From positions 1 to 64,000 of the forward strand of contig JAFZIZ010000001.1 of the NCBI GenBank assembly GCA_017554145.1: a stretch of DNA of 64,000 bases, in the 5' to 3' direction. Position 1 is the first letter of the stretch. The number at the start of each line of letters is the position of its first letter. Shown piece after piece: positions 12,296-47,575 of the stretch. The notes beneath the pieces were generated by a model. The model ran no database searches, was not told the DNA's origin, and saw nothing but the letters and a program-made list of their open reading frames with translations. This DNA is from Prevotella sp. GTDB taxonomy: Bacteria; Bacteroidota; Bacteroidia; Bacteroidales; Bacteroidaceae. The position numbers and the translations under genes are program-made.

Positions 12296-12327
12296 CAAAG
12301 ATAAAGATTAATTCTGGAAGATGCAAG
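12296..12327 (-). promoter_or_regulatory. promoter of the 11796-12275 gene, divergent from argR
   Basis: TATCTTTG (12303-12296) is a consensus -7 box, with CTTG (12327-12324) 20 bp upstream as a weaker -33 box. Confidence 0.55.
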
Positions 12328-12355
12328 GATTTCGACAGAAAATATTCGTAAATTA

Positions 12356-12387
12356 TTTGGATATATGCAGGATTTTGTATAATTTTG
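12356..12387 (+). promoter_or_regulatory. promoter of argR
   Basis: TTTG 12356-12359 and TAATTTTG 12380-12387 with a 20-bp spacer; the argR ATG is at 12416. The two divergent promoters are about 30 bp apart, so ArgR binding here could affect both. No clear ARG-box palindrome was recognised by eye. Confidence 0.6.
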
Positions 12388-12415
12388 CACCGCCATTTGA
12401 ATAAATATACCAAGT

Positions 12416-12892
12416 ATGAAAGTAAAGAATGACCGATTAGAGGCGCTGAGAATGATTATCAGCAGTCAGGAATTAGGCAGTCAGGACGAGTTATTGACGG
12501 CCCTGAAAAGAGAAGGTTTTCAATTGACACAGGCCACATTGAGTCGCGACCTGAAGCAACTGAAGGTTGCAAAGGCTGCCTCGATGCGAGGAAACTATGT
12601 CTATGTATTGCCCAACGACACGATGTATAAGCGTATCAGTACGCCACATAGTGTCCGTGAGATGATGCAAGTTCCTGGATTTATCAGCATCAATTTCTCT
12701 GGTAATATGGGAGTCATCAAGACGCGTCCTGGATATGCAAGCAGTATTGCATACAATATAGACAATAATCATATTGATGAGATTATCGGTACGATAGCAG
12801 GTGACGACACGATCTTCATCGTCATCAAACAGGGTGTCAGCAAAGAAGAAGTGATTGATGCCCTCAGCGAAGTGGTGCCGAATATGAAGTAA
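12416..12892 (+). CDS. argR: arginine repressor ArgR
   Basis: A 158-residue protein of the usual ArgR length. The N-terminal winged helix (about 1-72) carries the recognition helix QATLSRDLKQLKVAK. The C-terminal oligomerisation domain (about 85-158) contains GVIKTRPGYASSIAYNID and GTIAGDDTIFIV, whose Asp residues bind arginine in the family. It acts as an arginine-dependent hexameric repressor or activator. As first gene of the arginine/proline block it probably controls itself and the genes that follow. Confidence 0.96.
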   Translation: MKVKNDRLEALRMIISSQELGSQDELLTALKREGFQLTQATLSRDLKQLKVAKAASMRGNYVYVLPNDTMYKRISTPHSVREMMQVPGFISINFSGNMGVIKTRPGYASSIAYNIDNNHIDEIIGTIAGDDTIFIVIKQGVSKEEVIDALSEVVPNMK

Positions 12893-12898
12893 GATGTC

Positions 12899-12926
12899 TG
12901 ATGTATGATGTAAGAAGTAAGAATTA
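12899..12926. repeat. 7-bp-period array between argR and the GNAT gene
   Basis: Four consecutive heptamers tgatgta, tgatgta, agaagta, agaatta fill the gap. One of many arrays of this period in the window. Confidence 0.7.
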
Positions 12927-12929
12927 AAA

Positions 12930-13526
12930 ATGGAGCAAGATAATATAAAAGTATTTGTTGCTGGTCCTGAACATGAGGTATATGTGGACACGATTCTGCA
13001 GACGATAGCCGATGCCGCCAAGGTGAGAGGAACGGGTATTGCCAAGCGTACCCACGACTACCTCGCCACGAAGATGAAGGAGGCAAAGGCTGTGATTGCG
13101 CTCAGTGGTGACAAGTTTGCAGGATTCAGTTATATTGAGACTTGGGGCAACAAGCAATATGTGACAACTTCAGGACTGATTGTCCACCCAGACTTTCGAG
13201 GACTGGGCGTTGCCAAGAAAATCAAAGATATGACATTCTCATTGGCGCGTACCCGTTGGCCACATGCGAAGATTTTCTCGTTGACCAGTGGAGCCGCCGT
13301 GATGAAGATGAATACAGAACTGGGATACCAGCCAGTGACCTTTGCCGATCTCACTGATGACGAGGCTTTCTGGCGAGGATGTGAAGGATGCGTAAATGTA
13401 GACGTGCTGCATCGAACAGGTCGTAAATACTGTATCTGCACGGCAATGCTTTATGACCCCGAAGAGCATCTTCCTGCAAAGATTCCAGAAGAAGTGATTG
13501 AACGCATCAAGAAGTTGGATAGATAA
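12930..13526 (+). CDS. GNAT acetyltransferase, probable glutamate N-acyltransferase
   Basis: A 198-residue protein with a GNAT core: strand GLIVHPDFRGLGVAKKIKD (about 85-103) contains the acyl-CoA pyrophosphate-binding motif. The window holds argB, argC, argD and argF' but no classical argA or argJ. A stand-alone GNAT between argR and argG is the natural candidate for the first step, acylating glutamate with acetyl- or succinyl-CoA. That role is inferred from position. The stop codon abuts the GACCCC-type repeat at 13527. Confidence 0.85.
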   Translation: MEQDNIKVFVAGPEHEVYVDTILQTIADAAKVRGTGIAKRTHDYLATKMKEAKAVIALSGDKFAGFSYIETWGNKQYVTTSGLIVHPDFRGLGVAKKIKDMTFSLARTRWPHAKIFSLTSGAAVMKMNTELGYQPVTFADLTDDEAFWRGCEGCVNVDVLHRTGRKYCICTAMLYDPEEHLPAKIPEEVIERIKKLDR

Positions 13527-13654
13527 CCCCACCCTAACCCTCCCAAGGGAGGGAAGAGTGAGAAAGTCAAAAGTGAAAGAGTAATAAATCAAAAATAATA
13601 TACAATGGAGAATAAAGTAAATCGCTCCCCCTTGGGGGAGAAGAAGGGGGGTCG
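13527..13654. repeat. GACCCC/GGGGTC double-hairpin element spanning the argG start
   Basis: The left half begins ACCCCACCC at 13527 and holds the stem CCCTCCC-AA-GGGAGGG (13538-13553). The right half holds CTCCCCC-TT-GGGGGAG (13625-13640) and ends GGGGGGTCG near 13654. Between them lie a heptamer array (agtgaga, aagtcaa, aagtgaa, agagtaa at 13557-13584) and the argG start codon. The right half is translated as part of ArgG. It has the same architecture as the copies at 14848-15334 and 15638-15712. Confidence 0.75.
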
Positions 13655-14846
13655 TAAAGTAGTCGTTGCCTTTAGTGGAGGTCTGGATACTTCCTACACA
13701 GTGATGAAACTGACTCAGGACGGATGGGATGTCTATGCCGCCTGTGCCAATACAGGAGGATTCTCGGCTGAGCAGTTGAAGACCAACGAAGAGAACGCCT
13801 ATAAGTTGGGCGCCAAGGCATACGCAACACTCGATGTGACGCAGGAGTATTACGAGAAATCGCTGAAGTACATGATCTTCGGCAATGTGTTGCGTAATAA
13901 CTGTTATCCTATCTCTGTCTCTTCAGAGCGTATCTTCCAAGCCATCGCCATTGCCCGTTATGCAAAGGAGATTGGCGCTGATGCTATCGCTCACGGAAGT
14001 ACAGGAGCAGGTAACGACCAGATTCGTTTTGATATGACTTTCCTTGTGATGGCTCCTGGTGTGGAAATCATCACGCTGACACGCGACAAGAAACTGACTC
14101 GTAAGGAGGAAGTGGACTATCTGAACGAACATGGATTCTTTGCTGACTTTACCAAACTGAAGTATTCATATAACGTAGGTATCTGGGGCACCAGTATCTG
14201 TGGTGGAGAACTGCTCGACCCCACACAAGGACTTCCTGAGGATGCTTATCTGAAACACGTCACCAATCCTGAAAAGGAGTCGCTGTTGAAGATACAGTTT
14301 GAGAAAGGTGAGATTGTAGGTGTCAACGGAGAGAAATTCGATGACAAGGTGAAAGCCATCCAGAAGATTGAGGAGATTGGTGCATCATACGCTATCGGTC
14401 GTGATGCCAATGTTGGTGATACGATTATCGGTATTAAGGGACGCGTAGGTTTCGAGGCTGCTGCCCCCAAACTCATTATTGAGGCACACCGTCTGTTGGA
14501 GAAGTCAACACTGAGTAAGTGGCAACAGTACTGGAAGGACCAGGTAGCCAATTGGTATGGTATGTTCTTGCACGAGAGTCAGTACCTGGAGCCCGTGATG
14601 CCAGATATCGAGGCTATGCTCACCAGCAGCCAGCGTAACGTAACAGGTACTGCTATCTTAAAACTGCGCCCATACGGTTTCGAAACGGTAGGTATCGACT
14701 CCGACAATGACCTCACGAAGTCCAAACTTGGGGAATATGGTGAGACACAGACAGGATGGACAGCAGACGAGGCCAAGGGCTTCATCAAGGTAAGTTCCAC
14801 TCCGTTGCGTGTCTATTACGGAATCCATAAAGACGAGAAGAGATAA
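13605..14846 (+). CDS. argG: argininosuccinate synthase
   Basis: A 413-residue protein that joins citrulline and aspartate with ATP in the cytoplasm. The ATP-pyrophosphatase loop is VVAFSGGLDTS (19-30), followed by YPISVSSERIF and the HGSTGAGNDQIRFD motif. Residues 7-17 (NRSPLGEKKGG) precede the expected N-terminal strand and are encoded by the right half of a GC-rich hairpin repeat, so the ArgG N-terminus is fused to repeat sequence. The 3' end is followed directly by another copy of the same element. Confidence 0.96.
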   Translation: MENKVNRSPLGEKKGGRKVVVAFSGGLDTSYTVMKLTQDGWDVYAACANTGGFSAEQLKTNEENAYKLGAKAYATLDVTQEYYEKSLKYMIFGNVLRNNCYPISVSSERIFQAIAIARYAKEIGADAIAHGSTGAGNDQIRFDMTFLVMAPGVEIITLTRDKKLTRKEEVDYLNEHGFFADFTKLKYSYNVGIWGTSICGGELLDPTQGLPEDAYLKHVTNPEKESLLKIQFEKGEIVGVNGEKFDDKVKAIQKIEEIGASYAIGRDANVGDTIIGIKGRVGFEAAAPKLIIEAHRLLEKSTLSKWQQYWKDQVANWYGMFLHESQYLEPVMPDIEAMLTSSQRNVTGTAILKLRPYGFETVGIDSDNDLTKSKLGEYGETQTGWTADEAKGFIKVSSTPLRVYYGIHKDEKR

Positions 14847-14847
14847 G

Positions 14848-15334
14848 ACGACCCCACCCCGACCCTCCCAAGGGGAGGGAGAAAGGATTGAGAGATGAGT
14901 TTCAAATACAAATATAACTATGCCTCGCCTGATAGGTATAAAATGCTAAAGGAGTTTGCAAAGAAAAACAAGCAATTCCAGACAGAAGCAGAAAACTTAA
15001 TTTGGAGATACATACGAAATAACCAGTTAGGAGTAAAATTTAACAGGCAATATATTATTGGAGACTATATTGTAGATTTTGTATGTTTAGAGAAAAAACT
15101 CATCATTGAGATAGATGGCGGCTATCATTCTGAGTATGAGCAGATACAAAAGGATGATCAACGTACAGACAAACTTGAGTCTATGGGGTTTAACGTCATT
15201 CGATATACAAATGAAGAATTATTTGCAGGTATAGAAGGTGTATTAAACAAAATAAGAGAACAACTAATAATATAATAATGATTACACAAAACAACACCCC
15301 TCTCCTCCCCCTTGGGGAGGCCGGGAGGGGGTCG
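14848..15334. repeat. GACCCC/GGGGTC element carrying a DUF559 gene
   Basis: The left half starts right after the argG stop (GACCCCACCCC, then stem CCCTCCC-AA-GGGGAGGG, to about 14880). The right half holds CCTCCCC-CTT-GGGGAGG (15304-15320) and ends GGGAGGGGGTCG at 15334. The 126-codon DUF559 nuclease gene and the argC start codon lie between the halves, so the whole resembles a composite mobile element with cargo. Confidence 0.7.
14895..15275 (+). CDS. DUF559 (VSR-like endonuclease) protein inside a repeat element
   Basis: A 126-residue protein of the DUF559 family, which shares the very-short-patch-repair/restriction endonuclease-like fold. Motifs seen: LIWRYIRNNQLGVKFNRQ, then GDYIVDFVCLEKKLIIEIDGGYH (about 57-79) with the acidic residues of the active site, and the tail FNVIRYTNEEL. 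The gene is markedly more AT-rich than argG and argC on either side, and both ends are bounded by halves of the GACCCC/GGGGTC repeat, which suggests it moves as cargo. A role in spreading or repairing at these repeats is possible but unproven. Confidence 0.88.
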   Translation: MSFKYKYNYASPDRYKMLKEFAKKNKQFQTEAENLIWRYIRNNQLGVKFNRQYIIGDYIVDFVCLEKKLIIEIDGGYHSEYEQIQKDDQRTDKLESMGFNVIRYTNEELFAGIEGVLNKIREQLII

Positions 15335-16357
15335 ATCCGAGTGGGGGTCTTAGGTGCAGCAGGTTATACAGGCGGAGAACTCATCCGCTTGTTGCTGAAT
15401 CATCCTGAGGCAGAGATTGTGTTTGCCAACTCAGAAAGTAATGCTGGCAATCTGGTGTCAGATGTGCATGAAGGACTGATTGGCGAGACAGACCTGAAGT
15501 TTACTGACGCAATGCCTTTCGACCAAGTGGATGTCATCTTCTTCTGCTTTGGCCATGGTAAGAGCGAGGCTTTCCTCAAGGAGCATGAGATTCCTGCCAA
15601 CGTGAAGATTATCGACTTGGCACAAGATTTTAGGGTGACCCCACCCCAACCCTCCCAAAGGGAGGGAGACGGAATTGTTCTTCCCCCCATTGGGGGGATT
15701 GAGAGGGGGTCCTGGGTGTATGGTCTGCCTGAGATCAACAAGGAGGAGATTGCCAAAGCGCAACACGTCGCTAATCCTGGTTGTTTTGCCACTTGTATTC
15801 AGGTGGCACTGTTACCTGTCGCCAATCTGAACCTATTAAAAGAAGATGTGGCCGTGAATGCCATTACTGGTTCTACAGGTGCAGGACAGAAGCCTGGTGC
15901 TACTACCCATTTCTCGTGGCGTAACAATAATCTCAGCATCTATAAGCCTTTCCAGCATCAGCACATTGCCGAAATCAAGCAATCGTTGAAACAAGTACAG
16001 GGTTATCTGGATGCCGACATCGACTTCATCCCCTATCGTGGTGATTTCGCACGAGGCATCTTCTGCACGGCCGTCATCAAGACTCCTGCTCCTGTAGAGG
16101 ATGTGATTGAGGCCTATAAGGAATTCTATGCTGACGCTGCCTTTACACACTATAGCGACAAGGCGATAGACCTGAAGCAAGTGGTGAATACCAACAAGGC
16201 ATTGGTACATGTAGAGAAATACGGCAATAAACTACTCGTCACCTCTGCTATCGATAACTTGTTGAAAGGTGCTGTAGGCCAGGCCGTTCAGAACATGAAT
16301 ATCATGTTTGGCATCGACGAGAAGGCAGGTCTTCGCCTGAAAGCATCCGCATTCTAA
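15278..16357 (+). CDS. argC: N-acyl-gamma-glutamyl-phosphate reductase with repeat-derived insertions
   Basis: A 359-residue NADP-dependent reductase making N-acylglutamate semialdehyde. The Rossmann motif VGVLGAAGYTGGEL is at 22-35 and the catalytic Cys169 lies in NPGCFATC. Two parts are foreign to the family: residues 7-20 (TPLLPLGEAGRGSI) at the N-terminus, and residues 121-145 (25 codons, 15638-15712) between DFR and WVYGLPE. Both are encoded by the GC-rich GACCCC/GGGGTC repeat. The frame is kept and the core motifs are intact, so the enzyme is probably active. The gene starts 2 bp after the DUF559 stop. Confidence 0.95.
   Translation: MITQNNTPLLPLGEAGRGSIRVGVLGAAGYTGGELIRLLLNHPEAEIVFANSESNAGNLVSDVHEGLIGETDLKFTDAMPFDQVDVIFFCFGHGKSEAFLKEHEIPANVKIIDLAQDFRVTPPQPSQREGDGIVLPPIGGIERGSWVYGLPEINKEEIAKAQHVANPGCFATCIQVALLPVANLNLLKEDVAVNAITGSTGAGQKPGATTHFSWRNNNLSIYKPFQHQHIAEIKQSLKQVQGYLDADIDFIPYRGDFARGIFCTAVIKTPAPVEDVIEAYKEFYADAAFTHYSDKAIDLKQVVNTNKALVHVEKYGNKLLVTSAIDNLLKGAVGQAVQNMNIMFGIDEKAGLRLKASAF
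15638..15712. repeat. minimal GACCCC/GGGGTC element inside argC
   Basis: A 75-bp copy: GACCCCACCCCAACC, stem CCCTCCC-AAA-GGGAGGG, a 13-bp linker, stem CCCCCC-ATT-GGGGGG, and GAGAGGGGGTCC. The outer ends are inverted repeats of each other. Its length is exactly 25 codons, so argC stays in frame. Confidence 0.85.
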
Positions 16358-16367
16358 GCTACTGAAT

Positions 16368-17000
16368 ATGAAGACTGAATACGATGATCGCGTAAAGCTC
16401 TACCCCGATGGAAAATATCGATGGGTGTATGAGATGAATATGCTGAAAAACTATTCCGTTCTTTTTGACGTATGGAAGGTTTTTGGCATCAGTATGATTA
16501 TTATTGTTATCATCTTTGCTATCATCAGTCTCTTCGATGGCGATTTCGATTTAGACTCCATCAGCGGTATGCTTTTCGGATTAGGCGTTACAGCACTTAT
16601 CATCTGTGTTATAAGCATTATCGGATATTTTGTCTATGCTGCTATATCTGGTTGGAAATACGTCGTTCTTTTCATTATGGACGAGAAAGAGGTGGTACAC
16701 CAACAAATGCCCAAGACCATTAAGAAAGGACAACTCATTGGTGATTTAACTATGCTTGTTGGTAGTTTAGCAGGACGCCCAGGAGTCGTAGGAACAGGAC
16801 TTTTAGCCAAGTCACGCACATCACTGTCTTCCACGCTTGCAGACGTAAAACGACTGATACCATGTAGGTGGATGAATCTGATCAAGGTGAACCAGCTACT
16901 CTCCAAGAACCGTGTTTACGTAAAGGACGAGGACTTCGATTTCGTATACAATTTCCTGTGTGAACATTGTCCAAAAGCCAAAAAAGATAGAAGAACGTGA
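16368..17000 (+). CDS. hypothetical membrane protein
   Basis: A 210-residue protein with two hydrophobic helices (about 39-56, IIIVIIFAIISLF; about 67-92, GLGVTALIICVISIIGYFVYAA). A cytoplasmic-looking C-terminal region of about 110 residues carries a small Gly-rich stretch (LVGSLAGRPGVVGTGLLAKSRTSLSST). No family is recognised. It sits between argC and argD without an obvious metabolic link, and its last 41 bp reach into the argD leader. Confidence 0.7.
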   Translation: MKTEYDDRVKLYPDGKYRWVYEMNMLKNYSVLFDVWKVFGISMIIIVIIFAIISLFDGDFDLDSISGMLFGLGVTALIICVISIIGYFVYAAISGWKYVVLFIMDEKEVVHQQMPKTIKKGQLIGDLTMLVGSLAGRPGVVGTGLLAKSRTSLSSTLADVKRLIPCRWMNLIKVNQLLSKNRVYVKDEDFDFVYNFLCEHCPKAKKDRRT

Positions 17001-17021
17001 CGATTTGTCGGATATTTGCAG

Positions 17022-17029
17022 TAATTTTG
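17022..17029 (+). promoter_or_regulatory. candidate -7 box before argD
   Basis: TAATTTTG at 17022-17029 fits the -7 consensus and lies 24 bp before the argD start codon. The nearest TTTG (17004-17007) leaves only a 14-bp spacer, so the promoter is weak or differently spaced. Confidence 0.35.
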
Positions 17030-17052
17030 CAACCACTAACAAGAATCAGTAC

Positions 17053-18213
17053 ATGAAACTATTTGATGTTTATCCCCTCTTCGATGTGAACATCGTGAAA
17101 GGAGAGGGTTGTAAGGTTTGGGACGACAAGGGTCAGGAGTATCTTGACCTCTATGGTGGTCATGCAGTTATCAGCATTGGTCATTCCCATCCTCATTATA
17201 TGGAAAAAGTTACAGAACAACTCCATAAGATCGGATTCTATTCCAATTCTGTCATTAACAAATTGCAAGTGGAACTTGCTGAGCGTTTGGGGAAGATCTG
17301 CGGCTATGACGACTACCAGTTGTTTCTCATTAACAGCGGAGCCGAAGCCAACGAGAATGCCTTGAAACTCGCTTCGTTCACCAACGGAAGAACTCGCGTG
17401 CTCAGTGCCGAGAAGGCTTTCCACGGAAGAACAAGTCTGGCTGTAGAGGTGACAAACAATCCTAAGATTATCGCACCTATCAACGCTAACGGTCACGTCA
17501 CCTATCTGCCGCTCAATGATCTGCCTGCATGGGAAGCAGAGTTGCAGAAAGGCGATGTCTGTGCCGTCATCTTAGAATGCATCCAAGGAGTAGGCGGCAT
17601 CAAACTGGCTACCAAGGAGTTTGCACAAGGACTACAGAAACTCTGTAAACAGCACAATACCATCCTGATTTGTGACGAGATACAATGCGGCTATGGACGA
17701 AGTGGAAAGTTCTTCGCTCATCAGTGGTTAGACATTCAGCCCGATATCATCACCGTTGCAAAGGGCATTGCCAATGGTTTCCCGATGGGTGCCGTACTTA
17801 TCTCTCCTGAGTTCCAGCCCGTCTATGGACAGTTAGGAACAACCTTTGGAGGCAACCATCTGGCATGTGCCGCTGCATTGGCAGTACTGGACATCTTCGA
17901 AGAGGAAGGTCTGGTAGAGAATGCCCGTGAGGTAGGTGAATACCTCATCGAAAAATTGAAGGATTTAAAAATTGAAGAATTAAAGGAAAAGGGCAGCAGT
18001 CATATTCAAGATATCCGAGGACGTGGCTTGATGATTGGTATCGACCTCGATATTCCGCATAAGGATGTCCGTGTACCACTTATTGAGCAGGAACACTGTT
18101 TCACAGGCTGTGCAGGAACGAATATCCTGCGACTCCTACCACCACTCTGTCTGACAAAACAAGAGGCAGACCAATTTATTGACAAACTGAAAAAAGTATT
18201 AGCATCGTTATGA
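17053..18213 (+). CDS. argD: acylornithine aminotransferase
   Basis: A 386-residue class-III PLP aminotransferase converting N-acylglutamate semialdehyde to N-acylornithine. I start at 17053 (MKLFDVYPLFDVNIVKGEG), which matches the family N-terminus; an upstream in-frame ATG at 16960 would overlap the previous gene. Visible motifs are NSGAEANENALKLA, DEIQCGYGRSGKFF and the PLP lysine in TVAKGIANGFPMG. A run KLKDLKIEELKEKG near the C-terminus is encoded by an 8-bp-period array at 17955-17986. The stop overlaps the proC start (ATGA). Confidence 0.95.
   Translation: MKLFDVYPLFDVNIVKGEGCKVWDDKGQEYLDLYGGHAVISIGHSHPHYMEKVTEQLHKIGFYSNSVINKLQVELAERLGKICGYDDYQLFLINSGAEANENALKLASFTNGRTRVLSAEKAFHGRTSLAVEVTNNPKIIAPINANGHVTYLPLNDLPAWEAELQKGDVCAVILECIQGVGGIKLATKEFAQGLQKLCKQHNTILICDEIQCGYGRSGKFFAHQWLDIQPDIITVAKGIANGFPMGAVLISPEFQPVYGQLGTTFGGNHLACAAALAVLDIFEEEGLVENAREVGEYLIEKLKDLKIEELKEKGSSHIQDIRGRGLMIGIDLDIPHKDVRVPLIEQEHCFTGCAGTNILRLLPPLCLTKQEADQFIDKLKKVLASL
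17955..17986. repeat. 8-bp-period array inside argD
   Basis: Four octamers attgaagg, atttaaaa, attgaaga, attaaagg lie within the coding sequence and give the peptide KLKDLKIEELKE. The frame is preserved. Confidence 0.6.
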
Positions 18214-18986
18214 AAATAGCAATGATTGGAGCAGGCGCCATGGGTGGTGCCACCGTTGAAGGACTCGTCAAGAGCGGATTCTTCAAGAATGAGGATATTA
18301 CAGTAGCAGACCCTTCACTGCAAGTGGTGGAGAAGTTTGCCAAACATGGTGTATCGGTGACTACCGACAACCAGATGGCAGCACAGGATGCAGACATTGT
18401 CTGTGTTTGTGTGAAGCCCTGGCTGGTAGAGAATGTGCTGAAAGACCTCAAGGATGTCTTGGATGCCAAGAAGCAGATTCTCATCGTGATAGCCGCAGGT
18501 GTCTCCTCTGAGAAGATCAAGGGATGGGTACCTGAGTGTCCTCCCCTCTTCCTGATGATTCCCAACATCGCCATTGCACAGATGGCATCCATGACCTTTG
18601 CTGTTCCTGTTGGTGCCTCAGAAGAGAATATCCAGACCATCAAGACTATCTTCAGTAAGATGGGAACGATCCTCTTTACTGACGAGCAGCATCTTGCCGC
18701 AGGTACTACCCTCGCCTCTTGTGGTATTGCCTATGCGATGCGTTATATCCGTGCTGCATCAGAAGGTGGTGTGGAACTCGGTTTCAAGGCGGATGATGCC
18801 AAACAGATTGTGATGCAGACGGTCAAGGGTGCCGTAAAACTGTTAGAGGCAAGTGGTCTGCATCCTGAGGCAGCCATCGACTTGGTAACGACTCCTGGTG
18901 GTGTCACCATCAAGGGACTCAACGAGATGGAGCATGCAGGTTTCACATCAGCAGTGATTCGTGGACTGAAAGCAGGAGCGAAATAG
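18210..18986 (+). CDS. proC: pyrroline-5-carboxylate reductase
   Basis: A 258-residue NADPH-dependent enzyme catalysing the last step of proline synthesis. The N-terminal Rossmann motif is MKIAMIGAGAMGGA. The C-terminal dimer domain carries the family signature region with TTPGGVTIKGLNEME. It overlaps argD by 4 bp and is surely cotranslated with it. Ornithine-derived and glutamate-derived pathways meet here, which explains the mixing of arginine and proline genes. Confidence 0.95.
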   Translation: MKIAMIGAGAMGGATVEGLVKSGFFKNEDITVADPSLQVVEKFAKHGVSVTTDNQMAAQDADIVCVCVKPWLVENVLKDLKDVLDAKKQILIVIAAGVSSEKIKGWVPECPPLFLMIPNIAIAQMASMTFAVPVGASEENIQTIKTIFSKMGTILFTDEQHLAAGTTLASCGIAYAMRYIRAASEGGVELGFKADDAKQIVMQTVKGAVKLLEASGLHPEAAIDLVTTPGGVTIKGLNEMEHAGFTSAVIRGLKAGAK

Positions 18987-19020
18987 TTTACAGTTTAAAG
19001 TTTACAGTTTAGAGTTTAAA
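18987..19020. repeat. 7-bp-period array after proC
   Basis: Heptamers gtttaca, gtttaaa, gtttaca, gtttaga, gtttaaa begin immediately after the proC stop and fill the gap to the next gene. Confidence 0.75.
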
Positions 19021-19023
19021 GAT

Positions 19024-19581
19024 ATGGACGAACAACTAAAGCAAATAGGTGAAAGGTTGCGTGGATTGCGCGACGTGCTTGACATCCCTGTAAGTGAGAT
19101 GGCTGAGACCATTGGTATCTCCGCAGAGAAGTATGAGAAGATTGAAGCAGGCGAGTTGGATATTACCATCTCCAACCTGATGAAGATAGCACGCAAGTAT
19201 GGTGTATCAACAGAGGAACTGATCTTTGCTGAGTCACCACACATGAAGTCATACTATGTGACGCGCAAGGGACAGGGCATGTCTATCGAGCGTACAAAGG
19301 CGTATAAGTATCAGTCGCTGGTTGGTGGTTTCGTCAACCACAAAGCAGATGTCTTCATCGTTACTGTAGAGCCTAAACCTGGTGTTCGTACTATCTATAA
19401 GAATTCCCATCCAGGACAGGAGTTCAATATGGTGCTTGAAGGCAAGATGGAACTCTATATCGGTGGTAAGACCATCATCCTCGAAGAAGGCGACAGTATC
19501 TATTTCGACTCCACCAAACCCCATGGTATGTTAGCCATTGGTGACAAGCCAGTGAAGTTCTTAGCATTTACAGTCGAGTAA
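19024..19581 (+). CDS. XRE-family regulator with C-terminal cupin
   Basis: A 185-residue protein. Residues 1-65 are a helix-turn-helix of the XRE type (VSEMAETIGISAEKYEKIEAGELDITISNL). Residues about 105-185 are a cupin (HPGQEFNMVLEGKMELYIGGKTIILEEGDSIYFDSTKPHGM) with His and Glu metal-site residues. Proteins of this build sense small metabolites. It lies immediately upstream of an acyl-CoA ligase gene, its probable target, and the two are separated only by an 8-bp-period array. Confidence 0.9.
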   Translation: MDEQLKQIGERLRGLRDVLDIPVSEMAETIGISAEKYEKIEAGELDITISNLMKIARKYGVSTEELIFAESPHMKSYYVTRKGQGMSIERTKAYKYQSLVGGFVNHKADVFIVTVEPKPGVRTIYKNSHPGQEFNMVLEGKMELYIGGKTIILEEGDSIYFDSTKPHGMLAIGDKPVKFLAFTVE

Positions 19582-42437: not shown

Positions 42438-43810
42438 AACATCTGCATCCGTTGTATTCTGAGATTGCTCGACCAGAGAGGTTTACTTATCCTTTCTGCT
42501 ATGACCCTCATCCGTTGTGCCAGTTGGCAGCGAAGGAGGTGCAGGCATATATCGCCAGTCATGAGGAAATCAAAGAGGATGCTGATCGAGGAAAGATGTT
42601 TGGGGTTTTGGTAGTTGAGGCTAACACCCATCACCTAACACCCAACACCCAATACTCCTTCCTCGCCGCCTATAGCGGGTTATTGGCAGGACGCAATGAC
42701 TGGGAATACTTTGTGCCCCCCGTTTATGATGCCCAACAGCCTAACGGACACTTTAAGACAACAGAACGCGAGATATCGGAAAAAGGTGGAGATAAACAGA
42801 TGTCTCAAGAACTGCAATTATGGTTGTTTCATCAGTATCAATTGCAGAATGCGAAGGGTGAAACGAAAGACTTGGTAGATATCTGGCAAAACTATTACGA
42901 CCGCCCTAAATTGAGGGCAAAGTATCCACTGCCTCCTGGTGGCACAGGTGATTGTTGTGCCCCTAAATTGCTGCAATATGCGTATCAACAAGGACTGAAG
43001 CCTATCTGTATGGCGGAATTTTGGTGGGGAGAATCTACGAAAGAGGAGTTACGCCAGCATGGAAACTTCTATCCTGCATGTAGAGGAAAATGCAAGCCTA
43101 TCCTCACTTGGATGATGGAAGGCTTGGATGTTGACGTGAATCCAGAGACATTAGGTTTTCCTCATTTAGAGATTGAAACCATCTATGAGGACGATGCCCT
43201 ATTAGTGGTGAATAAGCCTTCGGGAATGCTTAGTACACCAGGAAGAACAGAAGAATATAGTGTAGAGACGGTGATGCGTCAACGCTATCCTGAAGCCGTC
43301 ATTGCCCATCGCTTGGATATGGGGACTTCTGGTTTGTTGATTGTGGCGAAGTCAATGGAAACCTATCATCCCTTGCAAGAGCAGTTCGTGAAGCATCAGG
43401 TAAAGAAGCGCTATATTGCACTTCTAGAGGTGAGAGGTGAGAGATTAGAGGTTAGAGAAATGTCTGGCACCATCTCTTTACCGTTAAGACCCGACCCTAT
43501 GAATCGACCAAGACAAATTGTGGATTTCGAGCATGGCAAACGCGCAGTCACGAACTACGAGTTCTTAACTCTAAACTCTAAACTCTTAACTCTGAACTGT
43601 ATTGCTGTTGCCCTCTATCCCCAGACGGGGCGTACGCATCAACTGCGCATCCATTGTGCCCATCCTGAGGGATTAGGTTGTCCCATCAAGGGTGATGAAC
43701 TCTATGGTACAAAGGCCGATCGATTGTATCTGCATGCAGAACAGATATGGTTTTGTCATCCAGTAACGGGCGAGGAAATGCATTTCACCTCGCCAGCGCC
43801 CTTTCTTTAA
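42434..43810 (+). CDS. RluA-family pseudouridine synthase with N-terminal extension
   Basis: A 458-residue protein. Residues 1-220 are an extension with Cys-containing segments (GGTGDCCAPKLLQYAY, YPACRGKCKPIL) seen in a Bacteroidetes/gamma-proteobacterial RluA subgroup. Residues about 230-458 are the catalytic domain with AHRLDMGTSGLLIVAK and YPQTGRTHQLRIHC. It modifies uridine in rRNA or tRNA. Three 7-bp-period arrays lie in the coding sequence and give VEANTHHLTPNTQ, LEVRGERLEVRE and FLTLNSKLLTLN, none of which belongs to the fold. The ATG at 42434 follows the -7 box by 9 bp. Confidence 0.9.
   Translation: MKHLHPLYSEIARPERFTYPFCYDPHPLCQLAAKEVQAYIASHEEIKEDADRGKMFGVLVVEANTHHLTPNTQYSFLAAYSGLLAGRNDWEYFVPPVYDAQQPNGHFKTTEREISEKGGDKQMSQELQLWLFHQYQLQNAKGETKDLVDIWQNYYDRPKLRAKYPLPPGGTGDCCAPKLLQYAYQQGLKPICMAEFWWGESTKEELRQHGNFYPACRGKCKPILTWMMEGLDVDVNPETLGFPHLEIETIYEDDALLVVNKPSGMLSTPGRTEEYSVETVMRQRYPEAVIAHRLDMGTSGLLIVAKSMETYHPLQEQFVKHQVKKRYIALLEVRGERLEVREMSGTISLPLRPDPMNRPRQIVDFEHGKRAVTNYEFLTLNSKLLTLNCIAVALYPQTGRTHQLRIHCAHPEGLGCPIKGDELYGTKADRLYLHAEQIWFCHPVTGEEMHFTSPAPFL
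42624..42651. repeat. 7-bp-period array 1 inside the RluA-like gene
   Basis: Units acaccca, tcaccta, acaccca, acaccca encode NTHHLTPNTQ in the N-terminal extension. Confidence 0.75.
43428..43455. repeat. 7-bp-period array 2 inside the RluA-like gene
   Basis: Units aggtgag, aggtgag, agattag, aggttag encode VRGERLEVRE in the catalytic domain. Confidence 0.75.
43567..43594. repeat. 7-bp-period array 3 inside the RluA-like gene
   Basis: Units aactcta, aactcta, aactctt, aactctg encode LTLNSKLLTLN just before the TGRTHQ strand. Confidence 0.75.
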
Positions 43811-47063: not shown

Positions 47064-47099
47064 ACTTCAATTCTTCAGTTTTTCAATTCTTCAATTCTA
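47064..47099. repeat. 8-bp-period array between kinase and peptidase genes
   Basis: Octamers cttcaatt, cttcagtt, tttcaatt, cttcaatt fill the gap. Confidence 0.6.
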
Positions 47100-47101
47100 T
47101 A

Positions 47102-47575
47102 ATGTTGCAAAAGATAGTTGATAATAACGAAGCGATTAGCGAGGTGGCATCCTTGTTGAAGGAAGGTCATAAGGTCATCTTGCCCGTCAAGGGACAGAGC
47201 ATGCTACCTTTCATCGTGGGTGGGCGCGACAGCGTTGAACTCACCAGACCTAAGAGAGCGCTTTTCGTGGGTGATGCTGTCCTCGCTTGGGTAGACAACA
47301 GCCGTTATGTGCTTCATCGCCTCTTTGAGGTAAAGGATGATGGTCTTATAGTCTTGATGGGTGATGGCAATATTGCAGGCAAGGAATACTGTAAGGTAGA
47401 GGATATCGTGGCTCTTGCAGAGTATGTCGTCAAGCCCGATGGCTCTCGTACCTATTTATATAGTAAGGGTCAGCGTTGTGGTTGGCAAATATGGAAAAGC
47501 CTGCGTCCTGTCCGTCGTTGGATACTGGCGATATTAAGAAGAACAATATATAGAAAATACAGAAAAAATATATGA
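47102..47575 (+). CDS. S24/S26-family signal-peptidase-like protein
   Basis: A 157-residue protein. The nucleophile motif is KGQSMLPF with Ser33. The second catalytic residue appears to be His72 in YVLHRL, as in SipW or ER-type signal peptidases, rather than Lys. The fold continues with GDGNIAGKEY. No N-terminal membrane anchor is seen, but a basic amphipathic C-terminus (WKSLRPVRRWILAILRRTIYRKYRK) could bind the membrane. It would cleave a leader from a small precursor. It overlaps the PqqD-like gene by 4 bp. Confidence 0.85.
   Translation: MLQKIVDNNEAISEVASLLKEGHKVILPVKGQSMLPFIVGGRDSVELTRPKRALFVGDAVLAWVDNSRYVLHRLFEVKDDGLIVLMGDGNIAGKEYCKVEDIVALAEYVVKPDGSRTYLYSKGQRCGWQIWKSLRPVRRWILAILRRTIYRKYRKNI

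Follow-up and report, generated by a model that had tools for sequence, protein, structure and literature searches.

A DUF559 nuclease gene with hairpin ends and short copies of the same plan: a probable mobile-element family in the arginine genes of a Prevotella genome

How does GC-rich, hairpin-forming DNA come to lie inside the reading frames of conserved biosynthetic genes? The question is raised by the arginine cluster in a 64,000-nt stretch of Prevotella sp. DNA (GenBank assembly GCA_017554145.1, contig JAFZIZ010000001.1, positions 1 to 64,000; hereafter the window), which belongs to contig C7 in an assembly of 2.80 Mb. An earlier inspection of the letters alone (the sequence-only reading) had noticed three copies of a double-hairpin element here, one inside argC and two at gene starts, and had likened them to Rickettsia palindromic elements (RPEs). 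The observation is confirmed and the interpretation supported by our analysis. In what we regard as the probable explanation, the cluster was invaded by a family of mobile elements comprising a form with a homing-type nuclease gene and a short form, both unspliced and translated together with the host gene. The element looks mobile, and looks as though it persists by being translated within host proteins.

Between positions 12416 and 16357 the gene order is argR, a GNAT-like gene, argG, a DUF559 gene and argC, with the following features:

13525..13556, + strand: left hairpin unit of copy 1, overlapping or adjoining the GNAT stop codon (sequence; stem pattern at 13539-13552)
13605..14846, + strand: argG, host gene with an extended start (sequence, domain scan)
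13623..13654, + strand: right hairpin unit of copy 1, residues of the ArgG extension MENK[VNRSPLGEKKGGR]KVVV (extension absent in 16 of 17 relatives)
14849..14882, + strand: left terminal inverted repeat of copy 2 with a GC hairpin, just 3' of the argG stop (34-nt match to the right end, score 33)
14895..15275, + strand: DUF559 nuclease gene, 126 aa, candidate mobiliser (PF04480 at 2.1e-34; profile matches to 3hrl and 3r3p)
15278..16357, + strand: argC, host gene with two element pieces (sequence, domain scan, structure alignment)
15301..15334, + strand: right terminal inverted repeat of copy 2 with a GC hairpin, forming N-terminal residues of ArgC (start codon at 15278; sequence comparison)
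15637..15712, + strand: copy 3, a nuclease-less double hairpin inside argC, 25 codons (T121-S145), replacing approximately KGDHD of the short loop (sequence; relatives)

The GC-rich stems exceed chance: four CCTCCC-N2..6-GGGAGG stems occur in the window against 0.03 expected from shuffles, all at the three copy places, and the CCCCC-N2..6-GGGGG kind is weaker (three matches against 0.11 expected). Nor are they confined to one occurrence, there being, besides these four, a single hairpin unit elsewhere in the same assembly, in frame within a 688-aa frame (L310, contig C7 at ~231318, outside the window). The starts of argG and argC both lie within hairpin-bearing sequence, as had been noted. The single architecture proposed for all three copies held for copies 2 and 3, whose ends pair as inverted repeats on the same plan (local scores 33 and 26), and failed for copy 1, which runs from the GNAT stop codon to argG codons 5-17; its two hairpins barely match each other (score 16), so it shares the plan loosely, and we rejected it as a full third copy. 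Copy 3 is indeed an open, in-frame insert of 75 nt (15638-15712) and 25 codons, with the correction that V120 separates DFR from it. Copy 2 (14849-15334) is 0.5 kb long and consists of two inverted ends, each with a GC hairpin, around a DUF559 gene; its inner part is a complete nuclease gene that had been overlooked, and no second DUF559 gene was found in the assembly searched. The short copies therefore have a candidate autonomous partner.

The extra ArgC residues are not ancestral among the relatives compared. At the argC site, 20 relatives (L038-L056 and L021) were readable, and the element is missing from 15 of them: 14 have a short loop (e.g. IKGDHDY) and one has another insert (L056), leaving five carriers (L044 and L046-L049) of two sequence types, one of which is the window's. 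The site is empty in L045, though its nuclease gene has ~93-94% DNA identity to those of L044 and L048. In 16 of the 17 relatives with a readable start (three further loci stop short of it), ArgG opens with a brief lysine-rich run followed by VVVAFSGG; hairpin-coded residues stand between the two in the window and, similarly, in L050, where the DNA directly upstream resembles, by eye, the end of another DUF559 gene. Could the argC residues be ordinary variation in loop length? ArgC proteins of solved structure have a natural segment of similar length at this site, which is why we take the loop to tolerate changes in length, and LigA and GuaA loops that hold elements carry other simple-repeat peptides in other genomes. 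The argC insert DNA, however, is an element with both hairpins, set where 14 of 20 relatives have a short loop, and we consider this explanation highly improbable. A second, different insertion occurs in ArgC near residue 240 in L047 and L048.

DUF559 genes elsewhere mostly have matching ends of their own. The domain was present in 87 of 150 genus genomes and 138 of 247 phylum genomes, and 168 loci with it were collected, of which 165 were kept after dropping one duplicate and two with short flanks. Sixty genus loci were taken in the order of the genus match list, from matches without a locus; 20 phylum loci were selected chiefly because their open frames are long, and the proportion of fusions should therefore not be read as a frequency. 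Aligning the left 350 nt with the reverse complement of the right 350 nt, at a cut-off score of at least 30, gave matching inverted ends at 128 of 165 loci (genus, 92 of 109; phylum, 33 of 49), compared with 116 of 820 mismatched pairings of loci and 2 of 155 windows shifted by 1.05-1.4 kb. Nuclease identity correlated with end similarity (Spearman 0.38, 4116 pairs without a shared flanking gene from 93 strong-end loci), a value reached by none of 500 permutations (maximum 0.158). Judging from these comparisons, end type tracks nuclease similarity even at unrelated sites, and gene and ends co-vary as a unit. The frame to the right of the nuclease gene was orientable in 62 of the 93 loci and parallel to it in 59, and that to the left was orientable in 55 and parallel in 39. 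Four active-site acids are conserved in 163 of 165 loci, including all 56 in-frame fusions, among loci that had been selected by family score. A profile of 18 DUF559 proteins matched 3hrl (3e-24) and the 'Mobile intron protein' 3r3p (1.3e-5), which we take to be I-Bth0305I. A defence function was considered and dropped, the PADLOC matches being weak (homing endonuclease 1.3e-6, DpdF 1.5e-5).

Hairpins at gene junctions might also be regulatory RNAs or terminators of the arginine operon, with the enclosed gene an ordinary Vsr-type repair gene, and a mismatch repair role has been proposed for a Caulobacter DUF559 protein (PMC12907096). Against this, copies lie mid-frame in many unrelated genes, and an Rfam scan of 12300-18300 gave no meaningful match (one at E 0.93, far under its gathering score), on which ground we rejected identity with an RNA family; the whole explanation strikes us as very unlikely. 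Folding gave a graded picture: three long copies tested as single strands were far more stable than shuffles (z -10 to -14), and the stability of copy 3 folded alone was not striking (z -1.8 and -2.0 on the two strands). In an alignment of hairpin units (A3; 58 of 68 used, ten divergent ones excluded), three of five covariation measures beat all 500 shuffles (97.9% of cells paired, 17 cells double-changed, and the covariation score); the other two fell within the shuffles, and a single pair accounts for the double-sided change (17 of 53 rows).

Another possibility is that the hairpins are repetitive extragenic palindromic (REP) sequences or their paired form (REPIN), moved by Y1 transposases of the REP-associated tyrosine transposase (RAYT) type, with DUF559 a caught passenger. 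Such systems are described as having hairpins, inverted pairing of these units, a gene bordered by them and some intragenic copies (PMC3733652, PMC8049555, PMC8266576), features that the elements described here share (34 inverted pairs in 40 regions, see below). Y1 transposases are present in all three genomes checked (eight matches), and REPs can occur within genes (PMC3733652). Yet the enzyme here is DUF559 rather than Y1, the end type tracks DUF559, and units of the DUF559 type were found at none of the four Y1 loci fetched among the eight matches; of these four, two have other long inverted ends (scores 115 and 91) and two none. We think the passenger account improbable. The Y1 transposase genes of G072 and G059 (L320, L321) have their own, different hairpin ends.

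Nuclease copies also lie in frame inside host proteins. A Pfam scan of 28 long open frames found another known family beside or around DUF559 in 25, and DUF559 alone in three (L086, L098, L127). The fused hosts include leucyl-tRNA synthetase (LeuRS), MetH, methylmalonyl-CoA mutase, RecG, UvrD-type helicases, HsdM, HsdR, Eco57I-type and other methylases, an ABC ATPase, an epimerase, a DegT aminotransferase, IspF, guanylate kinase and an amino-acid kinase, among others. Occupied leuS was the sole frame above the leuS cut-off in nine of nine genomes, seven of them at least 90% complete, and the insert enters at three sites, near profile positions 235, 378 and 484. Both forms lie stop-free in host frames, among them sole copies of essential genes, and a host protein so occupied must therefore put up with the added residues, barring their later removal; the implication is that occupied proteins work with the insert in place. 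Removal after transcription or translation, by bypass or splicing, would account for tolerance in essential enzymes. It is hardly credible to us, the frames staying open and none of the 28 fused frames scanned containing an intein (Hint, self-splicing) domain.

Short copies without the nuclease gene abound in two Prevotella genomes, G059 and G072, which have 44 and 40 exact matches to one end type, against 0 to 7 in each of five other genomes. Forty regions were compared, comprising all 30 places of G059 and ten of those of G072, the latter mostly picked for visible pairs; they hold 34 inverted hairpin pairs as well as single units. Spacing was divisible by three in 24 of the 34 pairs, 20 of which lie in frames that stay open for 60 codons or more to either side, versus three of the ten others, and one phase (AGC CTC ACC CCC) recurs in 16 of 20 open-frame short pairs. 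Hosts include the zinc-finger loop of LigA, GuaA (two elements with different ends), CarA, CarB, RNase R, GltB, a pyruvate-formate-lyase-like enzyme and a nonribosomal peptide synthetase; the short copies have spread to unrelated genes. LigA and GuaA aligned to solved structures with gaps at the element positions, the ligA and guaA of genus relatives have sites without the element, and the ligA of G072, the sole one in that genome, is occupied. Three 117-bp copies in G059 are 90-94% identical with unrelated flanks, which we read as evidence for spread. The short and gene-carrying forms have the hairpin end and the adjacent box in common. Separately, element-holding loops carry other in-frame simple-repeat peptides elsewhere (AACTCCTAACTCC, CAATTGTCAATTG; ligA at L273, L274 and L275, guaA at L244, L247 and L250, and a third site at L209), as if the LigA and GuaA loops were gathering several kinds of insert.

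Several results weigh against this explanation, or against parts of it. Eleven of the 34 short pairs share a length of 113 nt, and without them the spacing is divisible in 13 of 23; calling the host frame independently on each side succeeded in 12 of 24 pairs, with agreement in nine. At gltB (L221), two inverted hairpins flank apparently native GltB sequence with no spacer, and single hairpin units occur, so the unit of movement is in doubt and the minimal unit may be one hairpin. No target duplication was seen; comparison with diverged relatives shows instead ~5-7 codons replaced (argC, ligA, guaA). Clear ends were missing at 37 of 165 DUF559 loci, and nuclease copies have mixed phases at their ends, for which reason a single codon phase was rejected for them, the dominant phase being confined to the short type of G059 and G072. 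Close nuclease pairs (at least 70% protein identity) are at the same site in 145 of 152 cases, as are all 19 pairs above 85% nucleotide identity; most nuclease copies thus seem inherited or site-bound, and we rejected a recent burst of them. Movement and cleavage driven by the nuclease are what we infer from the sequences.

The shared sites would also suit a narrower account in which DUF559 is a site-bound homing gene that enters one and the same site, across related genomes, by cutting empty alleles, the short copies having arisen by another route. Kinship to the mobile intron nuclease 3r3p fits this, as does the occupation of the argC and leuS sites across many species, and site sharing would also be consistent with vertical descent. 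On the other side stand 78 nuclease pairs above 62% identity at different sites (one at 83%), the entry into leuS at three sites, and the dispersal of short copies with the same ends. We judge strict homing to be unlikely, though it deserves more weight than the other alternatives discussed here.

For the two-form family, the following course of events can be proposed. The complete form, a DUF559 gene between inverted C-rich ends each with its own GC hairpin, would encode a protein that nicks or cuts the hairpin ends, the target or both; host repair would then copy the element in, with a few native codons replaced. A nuclease acting together with repair copying would fit the homology, the fidelity to sites and the lack of any visible duplication of the target. 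The in-frame bias would follow from selection against broken frames, which would leave insertions in tolerant loops and at gene starts, where the ends would be translated as a flexible peptide rich in Pro, Ser, Gly and Glu. Short forms, retaining the two ends and a spacer, would presumably be mobilised in trans. Native sites partly resemble the ends by eye; choice of target by microhomology is not claimed, the relatives being too diverged.

How does this compare with known systems? RPEs are reportedly the subject of Ogata et al. 2000. Elements of ~100-150 bp, they are palindromic and lie in frame in unrelated conserved genes including guanylate kinase, and the parts of the accounts at hand name no mobilising enzyme or nuclease partner (PMC2229807, PMC10969869). 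To that extent the likeness is close, the evidence here and in relatives supporting the entry of palindromic elements into coding genes without loss of frame, with guanylate kinase a host in both systems; the elements differ in belonging to other bacteria and in having a nuclease-carrying form with the same ends, which sets them apart from RPEs as there described. DUF559 has been placed in the EDxHD homing endonuclease family (PMC9403480), which includes I-Bth0305I and whose genes reside in conserved hosts (PMC3943268). The homologous domain (3r3p, 1.3e-5), the conserved acids (163 of 165) and the conserved host genes agree with EDxHD or Vsr-like homing nucleases, whereas here there is no surrounding intron or intein, the inverted ends form hairpins, and the insert is translated with its host. 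Inteins differ in that no Hint domain was found in the 28 fused frames. As in miniature inverted-repeat transposable elements, short copies share ends with a gene-carrying autonomous partner, but there is no classical transposase and no target duplication was seen. A literature search with most subscription journals outside its range found, in the portions of text it covered, no mention of DUF559 as a partner of hairpin elements or inverted repeats.

Does the association extend beyond Bacteroidota? Of 44 listed plasmid and phage matches, 14 were examined, and nine of these had matching ends (score at least 30; Deinococcus four of four), compared with none of 14 shifted windows. Scores fell under 30 for the E. 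coli and phage records, for one Azospirillum record of two and for two of the five from cyanobacteria, and the Neisseria record gave 33 with 350-nt and 20 with 300-nt windows. Mismatched pairs in this set also scored high, with a maximum of 81, owing to the mutual likeness of C-rich ends. That DUF559 nucleases form a bacteria-wide class of unspliced, protein-coding mobile elements, moving themselves and short in-frame copies into essential genes, is a tentative extension, one that we would not yet bet on. If true, it would supply a mobiliser for in-frame palindromic elements and explain why, in several phyla, C-rich hairpin repeats surround DUF559 genes. On three Deinococcus plasmids (L090, L313, L315) a DUF559 gene occupies three different positions of the same hpa gene cluster.

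The narrower explanation already offers a candidate enzyme for in-frame palindromic elements, tied to them by its own ends, and suggests a role for DUF559, a family still named 'protein of unknown function'. Besides introns and inteins, it would give nuclease genes a further means of residing within essential genes, and enzymes such as DNA ligase, GMP synthase and LeuRS would acquire new peptide segments from it. For annotation, inserts of this kind move start sites and yield apparent fusion proteins.

As to the surroundings, the closest named relatives found were Prevotella of rumen and gut, together with Bacteroidaceae metagenome genomes. The window also contains a 248-nt direct repeat (537-1066; 91% identity, copies 282 nt apart) and, scattered across it in both orientations, simple repeats of the AACTCTAAACTC and CAATTCTT kinds (18989-19029, 43561-43620, 47065-47110 and others).

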